A DNA stretch of 64,000 nucleotides from Cochliopodium minus. Its lineage: Eukaryota; Discosea; Himatismenida; Cochliopodiidae. The DNA is taken from positions 27,613 to 91,612 of the forward strand of contig JAMYWO010000167.1 in the NCBI GenBank assembly GCA_024220525.1. The letters are read 5' to 3'. Positions 48,313-64,000 of the stretch are shown one piece after another. The notes under the pieces were generated by a model that did no database searches, was not told the DNA's origin, and worked only from the letters and a program-made list of their open reading frames with translations. A program made the translations under genes and the position numbers. Numbering within the stretch: the stretch's first letter is position 1; each line of letters opens with the position of its first letter.

Positions 48313-50272
48313 ATGAAATTTTTGATATTTCTTTGTTTGATAGTTTTTGCATTGGCACAAACTACACCAGAATATAGATCAATTGATGGAACTGGAAATA
48401 ATAAAGCCAATCCAACATGGGGAAGTCAAGGAATTCCTCTCGAGAGAAAGATGCCCATCAGATATGCAAATGGATTTTCAACAGTAAAAAAAAAATATAA
48501 ATTAAATTTTTTTCTTTGATTTCTTTGATTTCTTTTTTATAGCCTACAGGAGGATTGAATTCAAATCTTTTATCACCAAGAGCAATATCCAATGCCATTG
48601 CAGGAAGAACACCCGAACAAAATATCCCATCAGAACTCTCCAATTCAATCTTGACAACATTTTGGGCCCAATTAATGGATCATGATTTGACGTTTTCTCC
48701 AGATTTCAAAGATGCAACAGGACAATGTCTTGTACACTTTGATATTGATATCCCCAAGGGTAAAAAAAAAAATTTTTAATTTAATAACTTTTTAAATCTA
48801 ATATTAAATTCCTGTTGTTGATTATTAATTTTTGAATAGGTGATTTCTTTTTTGATAGTGAAGGAGTTGGTGGTAAAAAGATGGAATTTTGCAGAGCTAT
48901 AAATATTACTGGATCAGGAACAAATGCAAGCAATCCATTGAAATTCGCCAACAGAATATCTGCTTGGATTGATGCAACTATGGTTTATGGAAATACAGAT
49001 GCCAGAGCTAAAGCATTGAGATCATTCAAAGATGGTTTGTTGAACACATCTGCTGGATTAGATGGAGACTATTTGCCTTTGAATGATAATGGACAAGGGG
49101 GTGTAATCATCACAATGGGAAATGCAGTAATCAAATTTCCAGACACCAAATTGTTTATGGCAGGAGATCCAAGAGCGAATGAAAATCCAATCTTGCTTTC
49201 TCTTCATACAATGTTGGTTAGAGAACATAACAGAATGGCCAGATTATTGCCTGCAAAAATGACAGATGAAGAAAAATATCAACAAGCAAGAAAGATGTTG
49301 ATTGCTTTCGTTCAAAAGATCACCTATGAAGATTTTCTTCCAACCATCTTGGGAACAACTTTGCCAAAATATACAGGTTACAAAAGTGATGTAAACCCAA
49401 ACATTTTTGAATTCTTTTCCACTGCTGCTTACAGATTTGGTCACGATCAATTAACTAATGTAATTCTTCGTTTGGATCCTCTTGGAAAATCCATCAAAGA
49501 AGGACCTGCTTTGCTGAGAGATGTCTTTTTTGATATGGATGCTTTCAAAAAAGTGGGAGCTTCTGCTTATTTGAGAGGTGCTTCTGTCAATCCTCAAAGA
49601 ATCATCGATTCTGTCCTCGAAGATGATGTAAGAGTCTTTTTGTTTGGAAAAGGACCTGCTTCTGCTTTAGACTTGGTTGCAAGAAACATTCAAAGAGCTA
49701 GAGATATTGGTATGGGATTCTACAACGAAGCAAGAAAAGCATATAATTTGCCTACTTGTGATACTTTTGCTTGTGTCAACGACAATCCTGAAATCGTAAC
49801 AATCTTGAACAATTTGTATGGAAAAGATAATGTCACTTTTCTTGACTGCTTTGTTGGAGGTCTTTTGGAAAAGAAAGCAAACTCTAAATCTAAATTGGGA
49901 CTCCTTTTTGCCACTGCTATTTCTGATCAATTTCAAAGAATCAGAGATGGTGATAGATTTTGGTATCAAAACCCTGGTGTATTGACCAAAGCTGAACTGA
50001 AAGAAGTTGAAGGAACAAAAATCTCAGATATAATGCTCAGAACTACTGATTCAAAGGTTGTTCCTGTTGATGCATTTAATAGAAGAAATGTTCCTCCTGA
50101 ACAAGTTTTCAATCCTCAAGAAAACACCAAATGGATCATTGCAATCATTGTTTTGACAATTGTTGCTGGTATCTGTATCATCGTTATCATTGGTCTTTGC
50201 TTCGCAAAGAGTAACAGTAGAAAAGTTGACGATAATCAGTTGTATGACAAGCTAACAGACAACCACAATTAA
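48313..50272 (+). CDS. Animal-type haem peroxidase, membrane-anchored, copy 1
   Basis: Three exons (48313-48483, 48543-48759, 48840-50272), 606 residues. A signal peptide is evident (MKFLIFLCLIVFALAQ). Peroxidase motifs: FWAQLMDHDLTFSP (distal His, with Gln before it and Asp after it for the haem ester), WIDATMVYGNTDARAKALRS, GDPRANENPILLSLHTMLV followed by REHNRMARLL (distal Arg and the Glu for the second haem ester), and AAYRFGHDQL (proximal His). Near the C-terminus a single membrane helix (IIAIIVLTIVAGICIIVIIG) and a short basic-acidic tail follow. It should therefore be an ectoenzyme or phagosomal/secretory membrane enzyme using H2O2. Relatives include peroxinectins and myeloperoxidase; the membrane anchor is less usual. 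All catalytic residues are present. Confidence 0.93.
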
Positions 50273-50416
50273 TTACTTGGGGAAAATAAATCAAAATAAA
50301 TTAAAAATTTTTGATTTCAATAAATTTTTTCAAAAAATAAAATGTTAAAACTTTATTATTTATTTAAATTTTCAGTTGAGATATCTAAAGAAGGAATAAA
50401 GATTAGTTTGAGAAAT

Positions 50417-50510
50417 AATTTTGAGAACACAAATTGATAAGGAATAAAATGGAAAAGTAAAAAATAATTGTTTTTTATATCTTTTATTTAACAAATCTTT
50501 TTAAATTCCT
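50417..50510. promoter_or_regulatory. Promoter block shared with the first peroxidase gene
   Basis: This is the counterpart of 48183-48280: the same two conserved blocks at similar spacing before the start codon of peroxidase copy 2. Confidence 0.55.
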
Positions 50511-50547
50511 TCAAACTATTTTAATAAATAAAAAATAAAATAAAAAA

Positions 50548-52507
50548 ATGAAATTTTTAATATTTCTTTGTTTGATAGTTTTTGCATTGGCACAAACTAC
50601 ACCAGAATATAGATCAATTGATGGAACTGGAAATAATAAAGCCAATCCAACATGGGGAAGTCAAGGAATTCCTCTCGAGAGAAAGATGCCCATCAGATAT
50701 GCAAATGGATTTTCAACAGTAAAAAAAAAATATAAATTAAATTTTTTTCTTTGATTTCTTTGATTTCTTTTTTATAGCCTACAGGAGGATTGAATTCAAA
50801 TCTTTTATCACCAAGAGCAATATCCAATGCCATTGCAGGAAGAACACCCGAACAAAATATCCCATCAGAACTCTCCAATTCAATCTTGACAACATTTTGG
50901 GCCCAATTAATGGATCATGATTTGACGTTTTCTCCAGATTTCAAAGATGCAACAGGACAATGTCTTGTACACTTTGATATTGATATCCCCAAGGGTAAAA
51001 AAAAAAATTTTTAATTTAATAACTTTTTAAATCTAATATTAAATTCCTGTTGTTGATTATTAATTTTTGAATAGGTGATTTCTTTTTTGATAGTGAAGGA
51101 GTTGGTGGTAAAAAGATGGAATTTTGCAGAGCTGTAAATATTACTGGATCAGGAACAAATGCAAGCAATCCATTGAAATTCTCCAACACATTGACTGCTT
51201 GGGTTGATGCAAGTATGGTTTATGGACAAACAGATGCCAGAGCTAAAGCATTAAGATCATTCAAAGATGGTTTGTTGAACACATCTGCTGGAGTAGATGG
51301 AGACTATATGCCTTTGAATGATAATGGACAAGGAGGTGTAATCATCACAATGGGAAATTCTGCAAAGAAATTTCCAGACACCAAATTGTTTATGTCAGGA
51401 GATCCAAGAGCGAATGAAAATCCAATCTTGCTTTCTCTTCATACAATGTTGGTTAGAGAACATAACAGAATGGCCAGATTATTGCCTGCAAAAATGACAG
51501 ATGAAGAAAAATATCAACAAGCAAGAAAGATGTTGATTGCTTTCGTTCAAAAGATCACCTATGAAGATTTTCTTCCAACCATCTTGGGAACAACTTTGCC
51601 AAAATATACAGGTTACAAAAGTGATGTAAACCCAAACATTTTTGAATTCTTTTCCACTGCTGCTTACAGATTTGGTCATGATCAATTAACTGATGTCATT
51701 CTTCGTTTGGATCCTCTTGGACAATCCATCAAAGAAGGACCTGCTTTGCTGAGAGATGTCTTTTTTGATATGGATGCTTTCAAAAAAGTGGGTGCTTCTG
51801 CTTATTTGAGAGGTGCTTCTGTCAATCCTCAAAGAATCATCGATTCTGTTATCGAAGATGATGTAAGAGTCTTTTTGTTTGGAAAAGGACCTGCTTCTGC
51901 TTTTGACTTGGTTGCAAGAAACTTGCAAAGAGCTAGAGATATTGGTATGGGATTCTACAACGAAGCAAGAAAAGCATACAATTTGCCTACTTGTGATACT
52001 TTTGCTTGTGTCAACGACAATCCTGAAATCGTAACAATCTTGAACAATTTGTATGGAAAAGATAATGTCACTTTTCTTGACTGCTTTGTTGGAGGTCTTT
52101 TGGAAAAGAAAGCAAACTCTAAATCTAAATTGGGACTCCTTTTTGCCACTGCTATTTCTGATCAATTTCAAAGAATCAGAGATGGTGATAGATTTTGGTA
52201 TCAAAACCCTGGTGTATTGACCAAAGCTGAACTGAAAGAAGTTGAAGGAACAAAAATCTCAGATATAATGCTCAGAACTACTGATTCAAAGGTTGTTCCT
52301 GTTGATGCATTTAATAGAAGAAATGTTCCTCCTGAACAAGTTTTCAATCCTCAAGAAAACACCAAATGGATCATCGCAATCATTGTTTTGACAATTGTTG
52401 CTGGTATCTGTATCATCGTTATCATTGGTCTTTGCTTTGCAAAGAGTAACAATAGAAAAGTTGACGATAATCAGTTGTATGACAAGCTAACAGACAACCA
52501 CAATTAA
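50548..52507 (+). CDS. Animal-type haem peroxidase, membrane-anchored, copy 2
   Basis: A tandem duplicate of the preceding gene at a constant offset of 2235 bases, with exons 50548-50718, 50778-50994 and 51075-52507. It also has 606 residues and the same signal peptide, active-site residues and C-terminal anchor. Exons 1 and 2, both introns and the start of exon 3 are essentially identical to copy 1. Amino-acid changes cluster in one block of exon 3 (FSNTLTAWVDASMVYGQTDA versus FANRISAWIDATMVYGNTDA, and NSAKKFPD versus NAVIKFPD), with scattered others later (DQLTDVILRLDPLGQS). The changed block lies beside the distal Arg segment and could tune substrate access. No disabling change is seen, so both copies look functional. 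Confidence 0.93.
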
Positions 52508-56576: not shown

Positions 56577-57627
56577 TAGGATATAAACGGCGTTGGGATA
56601 CTTTCTAACTGGTGGTAGTTACGCCTATGTGGCTGAGGAGGGTAAGGGAAATTGAATTGTACTTCTGCTTTATCACAAATTCTCAAGGTTTTGGTACACC
56701 TTTGATCAAATAAAAAAAAAAAATGAAAAATATTAACAAAATATCAAAAAATAACACCTTGAACAATAAATTATTAATGGGAAACGTTTATGCTGAATAT
56801 ATCAAGAAAAAAGGAAAGGGATATTATTATTTGAATGTAATTGGAAACAATATGAATATATCAAAGCATTCATTGATCAATACAGCTATCAAAAAACATC
56901 CAAGCTAAAATTCTAATTCCTCTCAAACTATGTCTCAATTAAGAAAGATCAAACAACACTCAAAAAACCATTAATGTCACCCCTGAGTTTGAGAGATCTA
57001 ACAGAACCAATCTCCTTCTTATTTTGCACTCTCAAAGAAATGGATGAAATAAATGAAAGATTCAACATGGGAATAGTTCAATTTATGCCAGAGTTAAAGA
57101 TAAGCGAAGAAATCAAAAAGTATACCTTTGAACAATCAGGAGCTCATATTGGAATCATTCATCATTATTACAGAAACATCTATCTTCATTTCAGAGATGC
57201 AAGGAGGTACATAACTGGAAGCATGGAGATAAATGATGGAGATATCCTTGAATACCTGAGATCATCTGATTTCACAATAGATCTTTCAACATATAGAGGA
57301 TTCAAAAATTATAAATACCTCACTAAAGATATTGAGGCAAGAAAGATTCTGATAGAACTATTTCATTCGGATGATGATCACTTTGTTACTGTTTCTCAAC
57401 AAAACACGATTATTTCAGAGAACAAATTAAAAAAGATTTCTTCTAAAAATAATGGAAACAAAAACAACTATTATTTCTCTGCGCTCCTGCCTTTTCTCTT
57501 TATTTTTGTTTTATATCTATTTTTGTTTGTTTGGAGATTCTCTTTATTACATTGTCATTTAGAAAAAAATCTTTTTTCAATAAAATTGTTTATTTATTCA
57601 AAAACTTATTTTTTTAAAATTTTTTAA
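56577..57627 (+). pseudogene. Probably degenerate gene, possibly AAA/STAND ATPase-related
   Basis: Three protein-like stretches occur in order but in different frames: LGYFLTGGSYAYVAEEGKGN (56594-56653, ending in TGA), NVYAEYIKKKGKGYYYLNVI (ORF from 56723), and the main open frame from 56974, MSPLSLRDLTEPISFLF through the end at 57627. Stop codons and frame changes separate them and no GT-AG introns explain these. The main frame contains EEIKKYTFEQSGAHIGIIHH, reminiscent of the C-terminal lid/winged-helix of AAA-type ATPases (TxGHPGLI). The last 70 residues include a membrane-like stretch (LLPFLFIFVLYLFLFVW). It may instead be a live gene with an undetected start after 56940. Local GC is higher than its surroundings at 56580-56700. 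Confidence 0.4.
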
Positions 57628-57634
57628 AAAGTTA

Positions 57635-60600
57635 TTATTTAGATGGATCAAGAGAGACCACCGAAATGATGCTGGAAATTTTTTCATATTTTTTCAACAA
57701 ATCTTGGGTACATTTAAAATGTCTTCCGTTGGTAATTAGGGCGAGTTTTTGATGATTAGAAATCCCTTTTATCTCAGCATTAAATGAAATGGAGAAGAAT
57801 TCAAATTTTAGTTTTTTATAGATTTCAATTAATTTGCTTTCAGATCTGGAAATACAAGAATCTTCCCCATCTGAAAGAAAAATTGCTCTGCAAGTGTATT
57901 GACTATCGTTTCTTTCTAGAACCTTGCCCATTTCAATGAAACATTTTTCAAAATTGGTTTTGACTCCCAAAGTGCGCACAAGTTGCAAGAAACTAAAGTT
58001 ATACCCAGTATTAGATTCCAAAGTTTCAACAATATCTTTATCCATTATGCTCTTTTTTTCGAGAATAGTCTTTGATTCTGAAGCAAATAAAATAATAGTG
58101 ATCAAATCATCAGGATGTTTCGACTTTCTATTGTTTATCATCTCTGAAAAAGAAGATAACACTTTTTTCCAATTTTTTCCATACATTGAACCAGAAAGAT
58201 CCATCAAAAATATTAAATGAAACTTATGGCAACAAGTCAAGAAATGGCCATCTGAACTCAATGTTCCTATTCTGTTAATTGGTTTTTCAAGTAAGGGTTG
58301 ATGAAAGATTGGTTCTTGGCAATACTCAATTTTTTTACAAACAGAACACCGTGCTCCACATTTTTCAAAGATCAAATTTTTTCCACAAGGATCTTTGAAA
58401 TTTACTCCAGACCAAAAATCTTTATGTGAGCACTCATCTTTTTCTTCGAAAATCTTTGAATGACGATTCTTCGATTCTTTGTCCTCATGATTGCAAGGAA
58501 CTAAATGAACATGACCTCTCCCAGAAGACAAACAAAAAGATTCACATGTTTCTGAAATTGCCCTTTCTCCAACTCTAAACTTTCTTAATCTTCCATTGCT
58601 ATTAAAATCAAATATTATTTGATCTGAAATAAATTTTTTTTTGATCGATCCATGCACGAGATCATGTTCTCCAGAATGACCATGTCCATTGGGATGTGCA
58701 CAATAAAAGTCGCAATTTGGACATTTTTCACTGCATTTGTGATTTAATTCACAACTGTGTTCACCTTTGTGACAAAAAAGACCTGGAGGAATTTTCTTGT
58801 TACATTTTTTAATGACTGACGTTTGAACTCCTCTAAAGTGATAAGTGAAAGTCTCCAATTCTCCAACAAAATCTAAATCTCCTCCTTGGACAATTTTAGA
58901 ATCACAAATTCCATCTTTATTTTCACAATCAAAACAACATTCGTGTTCTCCTTTATCGCAATGATGTATTTCTGATGGAAGATCTTCATTATGATAACTT
59001 AATTCAGGGAGATTATTCTCAATTCTATAATCTCTTGAAATACCTATGTATCCATGGAAATGATCATTTGAAGTACATTTGAAAGTACATCCTAATACTT
59101 GACAAAACTCTATGCAATGATCAAGTGAGCATTTGTGAATCTTATGATCAATTTTTGAATCTATCACACAAAGTTTCCTACACATTGGATTTGAGCATTT
59201 CAAATCACAGTTGTGTACTTCCGAAACACATTCGTGGTCATCTGAATGATTGATTTTTCTGGCACAAAATTTATTACAACCAGTTTTTATGTGTAGTCTG
59301 CAAAGTTCCTCGCATTTATGTTTACTTTTTCCACAATCATGTTCTCCTGAATGATGTAGCTCCAATCCACATTTTACGTTCGGACACACATCACAATTTA
59401 ATTTACACAGATGATCAGTTTTACAAGAATGAAGATTTCCATGATTTTGGACTTTGGCACAAGAAGAAAAGCATTTGGAACATTTTTCTTGACAAATTTC
59501 AAATTCTGAAACTAGTTCAGATGAGAGAACTCGAAATTTTTTGTGAATCAACATCGATTGTATCAATTTTTCTTCTTTTTTCAAGTTATCAATCGAAAAT
59601 TGGATCCATTGTTGAACTCTTTTTAGTCTGTTTTTAACAACCAAAATCAGGAATGCATTCATATCTTTAGAAAAGTCTTTATCTTCAACATCAAATCCAA
59701 AATTTCTAAACAAAAGAGAAAAATCTTCTTCGAAATCTTCATTTTTCTTCAAAATATTTTCTTCCACTATTTTCAGTTTAATTTCTGAATCAACATAAAT
59801 GATATTCTTTCCATTAAATTCACACTCAATGTTATCCTTTAAATCATTTTCTTTCAAAGTTTCGATCGAAAAAACACTAAGTGACAATTCAGAAAGTTTT
59901 CCATATGCAACAGCTTTTTCAATATTCAAACACAATTTTTTATCCATCAACTCAATCGAATGTTCATCTAATTCCCAATCATGCAAAGAAATCTTCGATA
60001 AAAGTAAGGAGAGAAATTCTTTAAACTCTTGTCCATTATTGAAAATAGGATTGATCTTGTCAATGTATTTTTCAGAGAATAATTGGATATTTCGATAAAA
60101 TTTTTTGTTGAGAGAGGGAAAGGCGACATGTGACAGCTTACCAGAATAAAGTTGGTTAAAAAAATTGTCACTTTTATATTTTTCAGTTATTTGTATCGTT
60201 TTTTCTTGGAACTCTTTTATCACCTCATTACCTTCTCCAGGTACATCTTTTATGGTAGTTATAAAACTTCCCTTGAACAACCTGTCATTATTTCCCTTTT
60301 GAATGTATTTAACAGACTGTTGGAAACTGTTGAACAAAATTTCTAAATCACTTTCAAAGCGTATTTCAGATTTAAAAATGGTCAAATTGCTCACTGCTGC
60401 ATTTAAAATGCAAAGATAAGAATCTTCTTTCAAATGTCTTTCAATAGAGCCAATTCCCTCAAAATCGAGAATGATAAAAAGCTTATTTTGAAAAATCCTC
60501 ATACTCATCCAACATCCATCAGTACACCTCATCCCAGAAATTCCAAAAGAAGTACCAAAAAGGTGATTATGAAAATAACTTTTCCCTGTGGATTGCTTTC

Positions 60601-63417
60601 CCATCGTGGATATTATTACGATTTCTCCTTTCCACACTTTTAAAATGAGTTCATATAATCCAAAAGAAATAACTTTGGAGATGTCAATAGTATCTTGACC
60701 TTCGGTAGATAGCCCAAATTTCAGATTGACACCATCTTTCATCAAAATCAATTGGTTTCCGTTTACACTCGCAATTTGAATTGGTAGAGAACAAAACAGT
60801 TCTTCTAACCACTTTCCAAATATTATTTCTTTTTTCAGAAGCTTTTCAAAATTTTCAGGTTTGTCCTTCTTGAAAACGGTGTATTTAAACTTTACAAAAT
60901 TTGGAAATTCCTTTCCATAATCAGAGCTGAGATTTATATTTGTGTCTTTCATAAAGTTTTTCATTTTTTTCTTGAATTCATCATCTTCATTCATTGACAA
61001 GATTTCAATTTCAATTTTTTTTTTTTTTTGGTAAGGAGACTTGAGTGAAAACTTTTCAAAAAATTGTACTAGAGAATTCAGGATGTGAAAATCTTTTTGA
61101 CTCTCATTGGAATAAGAACTAGTGATTTGAAATCCTTGTTCACTCTTTGAAAAGATCGAAAACTTTGAAATTGTAACTTGTTTGTCATTCCTTACACTTA
61201 ATAATTGGTTTTGGAAACTCCCATAGGAAATTGCAAGAGTTTTGTTCAAATTATAGTTATTCACTTCATAGTGATCAAAGACGAGACCAAGATTTCCAAA
61301 TTTAATAATTTCCAAATCAGAAGTAAACAAAGAAAGAAATTTGTAAGTTTCAGTTATCAAAAATAAAACTCCTTTGTTACTAAAAACGTGGAGAATTTTG
61401 TTTTCCAACTTCTTGTGAGAACAAAACTGTTTGTTTTCATAATCAAACAATTTCAACAAATCACCTTCGAAAATCGCCACAAGAGAAGTGTTTTTTACAA
61501 AGTGATAGAAGGTAGTTTGAGAAAACTTCAATTCAAAATTTGGGATGTAATTGGGATGGTAAACCCTGAATTCGTTTTCAAAGTTGTATTGGAATAGTTT
61601 GCTATTACCTTTATCACAAGTTACAATGAGAAGTGTTTTTTTATCAAAACAATATTCCGCTGAAAGAATTTGGAAATTAAAGTTGTTCAAAGCCTTTGTT
61701 TCACTCTTGTCATTTATGAAGATATTACTCTTTGAGTCTACTTCAGTGATGTAAAGAAGAATTTTTGGTTTCACTATCCATGCATGCGTAATACTTTGGT
61801 TCACATCAATTGAAAAATCAATGTTTTCGTGATCTACTGGTTTCGGAATTATCAATTCTTCAGCCAATGCAGTGTCTATTTTGGGAGGGAGATAGCATAA
61901 AACTCTATAACTCTTTTTTTTGAGATTAGAGACAGGTATGTAGGTCATGTGGATATTCTTTCCCGAAAAGAAAAAATGATGTGCAGTTCTTATAGTGGTG
62001 ATGCTCTTTATGTGAAAAGTGATGTCGTGTTTTGATTTTGGGAGATAGTTTTGGTAAAGATTAATTTTTTGAAATTGTCTTTCGATTGAAGAATAATTAT
62101 TCAAGAAAATTTTAAAACAAGATTTCTCATATTCTTCAAAAAACTTGAATTCAATCTTACTCGTCTTATTATTTGTTGCATGCAATATTAATTTTTTTTG
62201 AACTTCAGAATTGTAATAAGAAGACATGTTATCAATAATCCCATCATAATAATCAATCACATAGGAAGAAAAGTTATTGTTGTAAATTTTCGATTTTTTC
62301 AAATAATCATAAAAGAAGTATGTCTCAGAGAAAGGAGGGATTTGATTTTTTCGAAATAATTTTGGTATTTCTTTTTCTTTTCAACATCAATATTAATTCC
62401 CTCTTTACTAATATTTGAGGAAATATCCACAAGATAATAATGAAAACTATTTTTCATCAGTTCTTCATAGGGAATATAATCTCTTTTGTTTATATCTTCT
62501 TTGTATTTCAAATACTTGTTATAATTATCTTTGTCAAGAATTAATTCCAAAAAAAGATCAATTTGATCATCATTTTCTTGAATAGAGTCTATATTTATTA
62601 TATATTTTGACATATTTCCGCCAATCTATTTCTCATTTCTTCAATGTTTAAATCTATGTACATTTTCCAGTTTGTATTTTGTTTCATTTGCTTATTTTCA
62701 TTCTCCGTACAAACACCAAAGCCAGAATAACCAGGAACAATGATAAACTTTTTGACATCGAATTCAAAGGTATGGTGTTGATTTGAAAAGATTATTTCAT
62801 TCTTATCAATTGATTTGTTTGTCATTATATTATCCACTGAATTCAAATCCTCTTTTTCCATTTTGCTTGGTATTCCATGTGTTAATATTTTGATATCTGT
62901 GCACAATCTGCTATATATTTTCATTATTGTTGCCAAGGAGGATATTTTATTTTCATTCAATTCAAGTGATTTATCCCAATGAACCACAAAATAGCAATTA
63001 TCAGATGTGATGATATACACCCCCACATCTTTATTCATCAATTCATTGCATGCAATATTATTGTATTGAAAATATTTAATGATACTTTCATAGTCTCCAA
63101 CTATTCCAATGCATCTCTTCATATTCTTCTTATCGAGCAGTGGAAACTGAACAATATTTTCTTCCAAATAACATGAATTTTTTTCGACTGATTCAATAAA
63201 TTTGAAAATTTCTTCTTGATTGGCTTTGAATTTTTCCACATAATGGGATAATTGTTGATCAACAACTATATTGAAAAGAATAAAGATTTTTGGTTCCAAT
63301 ATCCCATCTTTATTATTGCTGATCACTTAATTTCAATAAATTAAGAAATTTATTAAAGAAATTTAATATAATTTTACCCAAATGTTCATCTTGCATGTGT
63401 TCTTTCAGTTCTTTCAT
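57635..63417 (-). CDS. Giant GTPase (VLIG/GBP-like) with Cys/His-rich repeats and C-terminal VWA domain
   Basis: The first exon is MKELKEHMQDEHL from ATG 63417; the rest is three overlapping frames (63326-62598, 62613-62299, 62302-57635) that read as one protein of about 1900 residues. The frame breaks are at about 62600 (a 23-nt GT-AG intron would fix it) and at an A-run near 62350. The GTPase core has MGKQSTGKSYFHNHLFG (P-loop, about 60575-60604), GMRCTDGCW (switch I Thr), ILDFEGIGS (G3) and TTIKD (G4 TxxD), as in VLIG/GBP-type GTPases. About 400 residues of Cys/His repeats follow (58300-59560; for example LHHSGEHDC, CAHPNGHGHSGEH). The VWA domain has FLMDLSGSMYG (MIDAS DxSxS) and LSDGEDSC. 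The N-terminal 600 residues look beta-propeller-like. Its function is unknown; its vertebrate relatives are interferon-inducible. Confidence 0.82.
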
Positions 63418-63594
63418 TTCCTTTTTTTTTTTTTTTAAAGAAGATTTTCATTTTTTTTAAAGAAGATTTTTGTTAAATGTTATGAATAATTAACTCTTCA
63501 CTTTTCTTTCAACAAAAAAATAAAGAATTAATTTCCAAAATTCTTTTAATGAAAAATATAAAAAAAAAAAAGAAGAAGGGTGTGGGAAATAATT

Positions 63595-64000
63595 TCATTT
63601 CCAAATAAGAATAGAATTATCAGAACTGGCAGAATAAATGACACCACCAGAAACGCAAACTGCTTCAACTTTACAAATATGTCCAGTCAAAGTTTGGATT
63701 GGTCTGTCCAAGTTCCAGATCTTTACAGTGTTGTCGTAGCTCCCACTAAAAAAATATTGATCCTCTAAGCAAACCATGTAAACAGTGCCTATACTGATCC
63801 GAAAAGTTCTCTTTCACATTCTGATCTCCTAAGGTCCCACACTTGAATCATATTTTCATATGATGCACTAAAAAGCAAAAATCTATTGCAAAATAAAAGT
63901 ATTCTTTAGTGTTACATTTCAACTTTATAATTTAAATTTATTTCGATTATTTTAATTTATTTTCACACGATTTTTTTTTTATTTAAATTATTTTAAATTT
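63595..64000 (-). CDS. WD40-repeat protein, 3' part only
   Basis: The gene enters from the right edge. The last exon reads YMVCLEDQYFFSGSYDNTVK then IWNLDRPIQTLTGHICKVEA and ends SASSDNSILIWK. An exon at about 63890-63790 reads FSASYENMIQVWDLRRSECE. These are classical WD40 blades of the SGSYDxTVKIW type, like TRAF7 or F-box WD40 proteins. Between these two stretches the frame changes (about 63790-63810) without a splice site, so there is a sequencing indel or a real break. The same 77 bases as at 28380-28456 end the window. Only two blades are visible, so subfamily and function cannot be given. Confidence 0.8.

Follow-up and report, generated by a model that had tools for sequence, protein, structure and literature searches.

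A GBP-class large GTPase with a Cys/His array and a C-terminal VWA domain in Cochliopodium minus

We describe a gene for a large GTPase in a 64,000-nucleotide window (the whole stretch analysed; contig JAMYWO010000167.1, C167:27613-91612) of the Cochliopodium minus assembly GCA_024220525.1, which comprises 44.65 Mb in 598 contigs. The DNA is AT-rich, and the window reads as eukaryotic, to judge from the matches of its open reading frames (ORFs) and its broken-up coding regions. Searches with the bacterial SSU rRNA family and for a conserved rRNA string gave no match. On its minus strand, a secure ORF encodes a strand-rich stretch followed by a GTPase domain, a stretch rich in Cys and His, and a VWA domain, all in one uninterrupted frame. 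This ORF, rather than any upstream join, is the ground for reading the locus as very probably a single genuine protein-coding gene, whose product is a large GTPase of the GBP/RHD3/URGCP class, soluble and probably cytosolic. The original prediction had placed these parts in a single protein reaching up to position 63417. The sharing of one minus-strand frame by the GTPase, the Cys/His repeats and the VWA domain bears out its core, and at the sequence level we see no sign of the VWA part as a separate gene; the join up to 63417 is another matter, with unproven junctions of 23 and 32 nucleotides (nt) and an upstream frame that scores as coding as far as 62303.

Architecture of the secure reading frame

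Residue numbers below follow a provisional joined model of 1,891 residues; numbers within the secure ORF are lower by 336. The features of the ORF are as follows.

57635..62302, minus strand: secure ORF, 1,555 codons from TTG and 1,581 from stop to stop, stop codon included at the end
61118..61912 (approximate limits), minus strand: strand-rich region, earlier called propeller-like; no family match; model mean predicted local distance difference test score (pLDDT) 32.4
59903..60670 (approximate limits), minus strand: GTPase domain, matching Pfam URGCP, RHD3 and GBP, and GBPs in PDB
60578..60601, minus strand: G1 / P-loop GKQSTGKS, residues 904-911; aligns with GSQSTGKS of the same genome's Sey1
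60509..60529, minus strand: G2 / switch I RCTDGCW, residues 928-934; aligns with QCTKGIW of the genome's own Sey1 and ACTKGIY of its own GBP
60455..60466, minus strand: G3 DFEG, residues 949-952; D, E and G invariant against own Sey1 and GBP
60245..60259, minus strand: G4 TTIKD, residues 1018-1022; aligns with WLVRD of own GBP (the Sey1 exon used stops short of G4)
58223..59515, minus strand: Cys/His-rich stretch, residues 1266-1696 (431 residues), with 47 C and 37 H
59036..59494, minus strand: five tandem units of the form C-x3-C-x(2-7)-C-x(3-4)-C-...-H-...-H-x-C-x(3-4)-H, 27-35 residues each, the fifth incomplete
58631..58735, minus strand: sixth unit, apart from the others and incomplete, aligned to the same unit pattern
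57638..58222, minus strand: C-terminal VWA domain, 195 residues from 1697; Pfam VWA_2 at 3.5e-8 and VWA at 3.7e-7, both above cut-off
58184..58201, minus strand: metal ion-dependent adhesion site (MIDAS) motif DLSGSM (DxSxS), residues 1704-1709
57860..57874, minus strand: second Asp of the MIDAS, in SDGED, residues 1813-1817

The GTPase motifs follow the canonical order G1-G2-G3-G4; the P-loop and the RCTDGCW, DFEG and TxKD switch signatures claimed earlier are all present, in that order, in one minus-strand frame. Their class was assigned from profile scores, in place of a tree against VLIG, GBP and atlastin. With the G domain alone as query, the highest-scoring Pfam profile was URGCP_GTPase (PF25683), at 37.1 bits against a cut-off of 55 and with only positions 187-265 of its 396 matched; RHD3 reached 26.5 bits against a cut-off of 42.4 (the genome's own Sey1, as control, gave 164.9), and GBP (PF02263) 23.5 against 21.1 bits, the sole cut-off passed. 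The GBP profile gave 25 bits in the genome search and was not listed in the whole-ORF scan at E up to 1. In PDB, a search with the G domain matched 13 sequences at E up to 1, every one of them GBP1, GBP2 or GBP5 (E 2.2e-4 to 3.3e-3), and the alignment with the Sey1 piece showed 33% identity. Pfam found no match to the GBP C-terminal helical domain at E up to 1 with the whole ORF or up to 10 with pieces. Of the GBP/VLIG type that had been predicted, the GBP class is upheld by the Pfam cut-off and the PDB matches, while the missed URGCP cut-off leaves membership in VLIG unsupported; Pfam and PDB place the domain in the GBP/RHD3/URGCP class, and no unrelated P-loop family was seen. The genome also carries a GBP match on C215 (179.2 bits, in two exon pieces, with one TAG within the longer alignment) and a Sey1 piece on C101 (RHD3 164.9 bits; Sey1 structure matched at 7.7e-37). 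Searches of the genome with the URGCP profile returned this gene and Sey1 only, and so did searches with the G domain as query up to E 10. Judged by these comparisons, and within the lower-bound limits of the genome searches, the gene is a third, separate member of the class.

The Cys/His stretch stands out in composition, with 84 C and H against at most 20 in any preceding window of 431 residues, and with 21 C and 33 H in the other 1,461 residues of the joined model. Seven spacing patterns, picked after inspection of the sequence, were compared with 2,000 shuffles of the stretch. No shuffle reached the observed counts of C-x3-C (14; shuffle mean 4.96), H-x-C-x3-C (5; mean 0.43), GEH (4; mean 0.21) or H-x-GEH-x-C (2; mean 0.00). 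There was no clear enrichment of C-x2-C (5 against a mean of 4.94), of C-x3-H-x-C (2 against 0.42, reached in 149 of the 2,000) or of C-x2-C-x3-C (2 against 0.51, reached in 177 of the 2,000). Compared with itself by hhalign, the stretch matched internally, though weakly (E 0.005 and 0.009). About 400 residues of Cys/His repeats had been predicted, and the 431-residue stretch with its six similar units, the last two incomplete, agrees well. Pfam placed no family above cut-off here, the nearest being L51_S25 at a chance-level E of 0.22; NF-X1 or another known zinc finger was considered for the repeat and set aside, as there was nothing beyond this chance match. In a genome search at E up to 10, with a tool that scores the best candidates only, the stretch found itself alone. 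The array may bind metal.

The VWA domain scores 34.5 bits against a cut-off of 27 (VWA_2) and 31 against 23.8 (VWA), and its MIDAS is intact as predicted, with DxSxS, the Thr (in TNFEKC at 1785) and the second Asp all in place. Among 25 exon-level VWA matches listed in the genome, twelve loci were fetched, and eight of these together with this protein make up the nine rows of the comparison and tree (C542, L056, L060 and L061 stand outside it). Among these eight, by BLASTP, the VWA domain is closest to an RRM-VWA protein (60.1 bits), two Hsp70-like-VWA proteins (50.4 and 30.4) and a SecA-like-VWA protein (47.4); two C2 genes scored 37.7 and 34.7 bits, and two Cys-rich secreted-type proteins 23.9 and 15.4. 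The tree splits the nine into two groups at support 100/99, with this VWA in the first.

Several of these relatives sit beside or within nucleotide-driven engines. SecA_DEAD and VWA share one 2,627-residue frame on C294 (L062:386-8266), and on C2 (L065) another such VWA is preceded upstream by a SecA-like ORF. On C42, one Hsp70-like part belongs to an adjacent ORF whose best solved match is DnaK (E 0.0085); the other Hsp70-like labels were given by eye, and Hsp70-like-VWA fusions are thus putative. From this pattern, the VWA domain may be a shared target-capture module in this genome. SecA_DEAD matches number four in the genome (C174, C294, C100 and C2). VWA domains adjoin Hsp70-like ORFs at L004 and L054 (C42) and L052 (C542), and one is fused to an RRM domain on C43 (L003). 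Large Cys-rich VWA ORFs with a secreted look, by eye, occur at L050, L053, L056, L061 and L063, the last with a sub-cut-off match to the Dictyostelium CTDC repeat.

The region before the GTPase is less distinct. A propeller-like N-terminus had been proposed, of which only the richness in strands stands: Pfam gave no match to the N-terminal piece at E up to 10, hhalign self-comparison found one internal match that was not significant (E 0.2), and AlphaFold run without an alignment predicted strands at a mean pLDDT of 32.4. A propeller is therefore a guess. No membrane stretch was seen, the highest 19-residue hydropathy mean being 1.18, and no CaaX box, the C-terminus being SLDPSK; the protein is therefore probably soluble and not prenylated, and probably cytosolic.

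Gene limits, copies and neighbours

Upstream of the secure ORF lies a series of possible exons that the provisional model joins through GT-AG junctions of 52, 23 and 32 nt to a start ATG at 63417.

63378..63417, minus strand: possible exon 1, with ATG at 63417 and codon score 0.442, followed by a 52-nt GT-AG stretch; membership in the gene putative
62612..63325, minus strand: possible exon 2, the sole stop-free sense frame, score 0.142, without known domain; membership in the gene putative
62589..62611, minus strand: frame junction and possible micro-intron, 23-nt GT-AG, where the exon-2 frame meets three stops; the C70 copy has the identical sequence; unproven
62409..62588, minus strand: possible exon 3, stop-free sense frame, score 0.237; membership in the gene putative
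62303..62408, minus strand: frame-switch zone; upstream frame 0.278 mean over 34 codons with 0 stops, main frame 0.046 with 4 stops
62377..62408, minus strand: doubtful 32-nt GT-AG intron inside the frame-switch zone

Over the exon-2 region an antisense frame scores 0.135 but has 9 stops, and Pfam gave only a chance-level match to Med11 (E 0.064); over the exon-3 region an antisense frame scores 0.191 with 2 stops, and the sense frame remains coding-like as far as 62303. A 52-nt GT-AG intron plausibly gives the first exon. The lower end of the series is the difficulty. From 62303 to 62376, the first 24 codons of putative exon 4, the main frame scores 0.010-0.022 against 0.219-0.230 for the upstream frame, and the coding signal passes to the main frame only at about 62300. 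The low score of this exon start makes the joined model provisional and raises the chance that the upstream parts are separate or broken, and the extension to 63417 is not secured.

An alternative placing of the gene limits, compatible with all functional readings below, is that the upstream ORFs at 62299-63417 form a gene of their own or a 5' end broken by a frame error, as their coding-like frame down to 62303 allows, and that the protein starts at or near the first ATG of the secure ORF, at 62227, with 1,530 residues. We regard this as a real possibility without adopting it. The upstream frame scores as coding beyond the proposed 32-nt intron and then meets a stop, the 23- and 32-nt junctions are very short, and a related copy on C70 is broken; against this, the two frames follow each other head to tail in the same direction, and the main frame has 26 open codons ahead of its first TTG (1,581 against 1,555), so that some earlier coding sequence is possible.

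The copy on C70 (L013, C70:38500-48400) is homologous to window positions 62853-63894 (85.7%), 62420-62752 (98.2%) and 57384-57808 (96.0%). Between the last two stretches about 4.6 kb has given way to unrelated sequence, most of whose ORFs lie on the other strand, the N-terminal part carries deletions, and tblastn on C70 found neither the GTPase nor the Cys/His array. By these alignments the copy is broken, and the duplication took in the end of the neighbouring gene, by eye a WD40 protein; identity this high suggests that the event was recent. The window stops where the contig does (91,612), inside this WD40-like gene (window 63600-64000), whose end is present on C70 too. One full and one broken partial copy were found in the genome, both counts being lower bounds, and the absence of expansion is weak evidence against an arms-race gene.

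Relatives in other genomes were sought by several routes. IMG/VR yielded 10 stretches with the whole ORF and 2 with the Cys/His-VWA part, none of them confirmed, and nothing matched in NCBIfam or PADLOC. A degenerate DNA pattern for C-x3-C-x3-G-[R/S]-G-H-x-H-x3-C picked out 3 viral stretches, whose large frames look like phage proteins, and 26 prokaryote stretches, all read as chance; when the joined protein was compared by tblastn with 47 loci including these 29 stretches, three of the 29 matched, at chance level (E 0.06, 0.15 and 0.65).

Among ten ORFs of the window that were scanned, there were matches to GNT-I, SHMT, phosphoribosyl synthetase, bZIP and animal haem peroxidase, among others. 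The last type is represented at window 48881-52507 by two near-alike tandem ORFs, the first tested and the second judged by eye.

Interpretation and comparison with known systems

GTP binding drives pairing in GBPs and atlastins (PMC8565484), and in MoxR systems a peptide is captured by a VWA domain, which acts as co-chaperone, while an NTPase changes the captured protein (PMC7159879). Taken together, these precedents make a GTP-switched scaffold the most economical reading, and a protein of this class that grips a target in such a scaffold is, as a whole, the explanation we favour, if only tentatively. The mechanism in its particulars is a shade more doubtful. GTP binding would pair the G domains, as in GBP and atlastin, and clusters of the paired protein would form a scaffold; a target would be held by the Cys/His array together with the VWA domain, the MIDAS binding an acidic or extended peptide of a partner; and the GTP cycle, presumably with hydrolysis, would gather or remodel what is held. 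Since VWA domains in the compared set also occur on SecA-like and, by neighbouring ORFs, Hsp70-like engines, capture by the VWA and work by the NTPase may be a plan shared among these proteins.

Several results weigh against this scaffold reading. The G domain scores below the cut-off for URGCP, the profile that it matches best, and below that for RHD3; both AlphaFold models, made without alignments, are unusable (mean pLDDT 32.4 and 32.2); the VWA branch is long (1.76), with an ambiguous placement within its group; and no relative from another genome emerged from IMG/VR, the viral and prokaryote pattern searches or tblastn.

The same parts could serve other ends. The GTPase might belong to cell-autonomous defence, coating intracellular bacteria, viruses or vacuoles that the Cys/His array and VWA domain recognise, as its class is common with GBP and as a Dictyostelium Gnbp occurs in the Legionella-vacuole proteome (PMC8565484). 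We consider this unlikely, given the lack of detected expansion, the separate and far stronger GBP match on C215 and the absence of a visible CaaX box. Nor does the VWA speak for defence in particular: its kinship with domains on chaperone-like engines would fit remodelling or quality control as well as an immune setting. In that version the VWA would be a substrate clamp and the GTPase would replace the SecA-like or Hsp70-like engine of the sister proteins, a proposal that also draws on the co-chaperone role of VWA in MoxR systems (PMC7159879) and that we would place on the unlikely side without dismissing it. The Hsp70 link, however, consists of neighbouring ORFs, of which one was tested (DnaK E 0.0085) and the rest were judged by eye. 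Moreover, GBP-class GTPases are not known to act as unfoldases.

Membrane tethering or fusion in the manner of atlastin and Sey1 would accord with the RHD3 profile score of 26.5 bits and the 33% identity to the genome's own Sey1 piece; it is nevertheless very unlikely, with no transmembrane stretch seen and the RHD3 cut-off of 42.4 missed where the own Sey1 reaches 164.9. Both the defence and the tethering role are guesses from family names. A broader conjecture, which strikes us as improbable, is that the genome encodes a modular series of giant machines. These would couple a C-terminal VWA clamp of one common kind to various NTP-driven engines (a GBP-class GTPase, a SecA-like translocase or an Hsp70-like chaperone), would seize proteins that are foreign or damaged, and would take them apart or sequester them; the set would be the eukaryotic parallel to the NTPase-VWA conflict systems of prokaryotes. 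In the GTPase member, the Cys/His array would be a new metal-binding repeat that extends recognition.

Most work on GBP-class GTPases concerns their role as immune scaffolds in animals and plants. A protist member that carries a Cys/His array and a VWA clamp of its own would show how a GTPase of this kind can be directed to its target in the absence of a lipid anchor, and the related VWA domains on SecA-like and Hsp70-like proteins point to a general, testable capture module.

Among known families, GBP (PF02263) shares the G1-G3 motifs and the [R/K]D form of G4, is the Pfam family whose cut-off the domain alone passes, and supplies 13 of 13 PDB matches; this protein differs from it in having no match to the GBP helical domain, in adding the Cys/His array and VWA, and in standing apart from the genome's separate 179-bit GBP match on C215. 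VLIG/URGCP (PF25683) gives the top profile score (37.1 bits) and has in common large size and RCT-G in switch I, which is a VLIG motif, but the score is under the cut-off of 55, VLIG proteins have another motif in the G4 region and are not known to carry a Cys/His array or VWA. RHD3, Sey1 and atlastin share QSTGKS, CT-G-W and D-EG, whereas this protein is without a membrane segment and under the RHD3 cut-off, and the genome's own Sey1 is separate on C101. Similar unnamed Cys/His-VWA proteins of fungi and other protists presumably occur in public databases.

The MoxR-VWA ternary conflict systems of prokaryotes likewise couple a MIDAS-bearing VWA to an NTPase engine, although theirs is an AAA+ engine from a separate gene (PMC7159879) and here the GTPase is in the same chain. 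The nearest layout is that of the cpRAS proteins of a few metazoans and scattered protists, in which, after a GTPase, a possible Cys zinc finger stands immediately ahead of the C-terminal VWA (PMC2430557). The order of GTPase, Cys motif and C-terminal VWA is the same (here Cys/His at 1266-1696 and VWA from 1697), a likeness in layout; the cpRAS GTPase is circularly permuted (G3-G4-G5-G1-G2; PMC2430557), in contrast to G1-G2-G3-G4 here, and the Cys/His part here extends over 431 residues. Searches of the open-access PMC literature turned up no account of this layout with a GBP-class GTPase. The architecture itself is real and unusual; the layout of GTPase, Cys motif and VWA is already published for cpRAS, with another GTPase branch.

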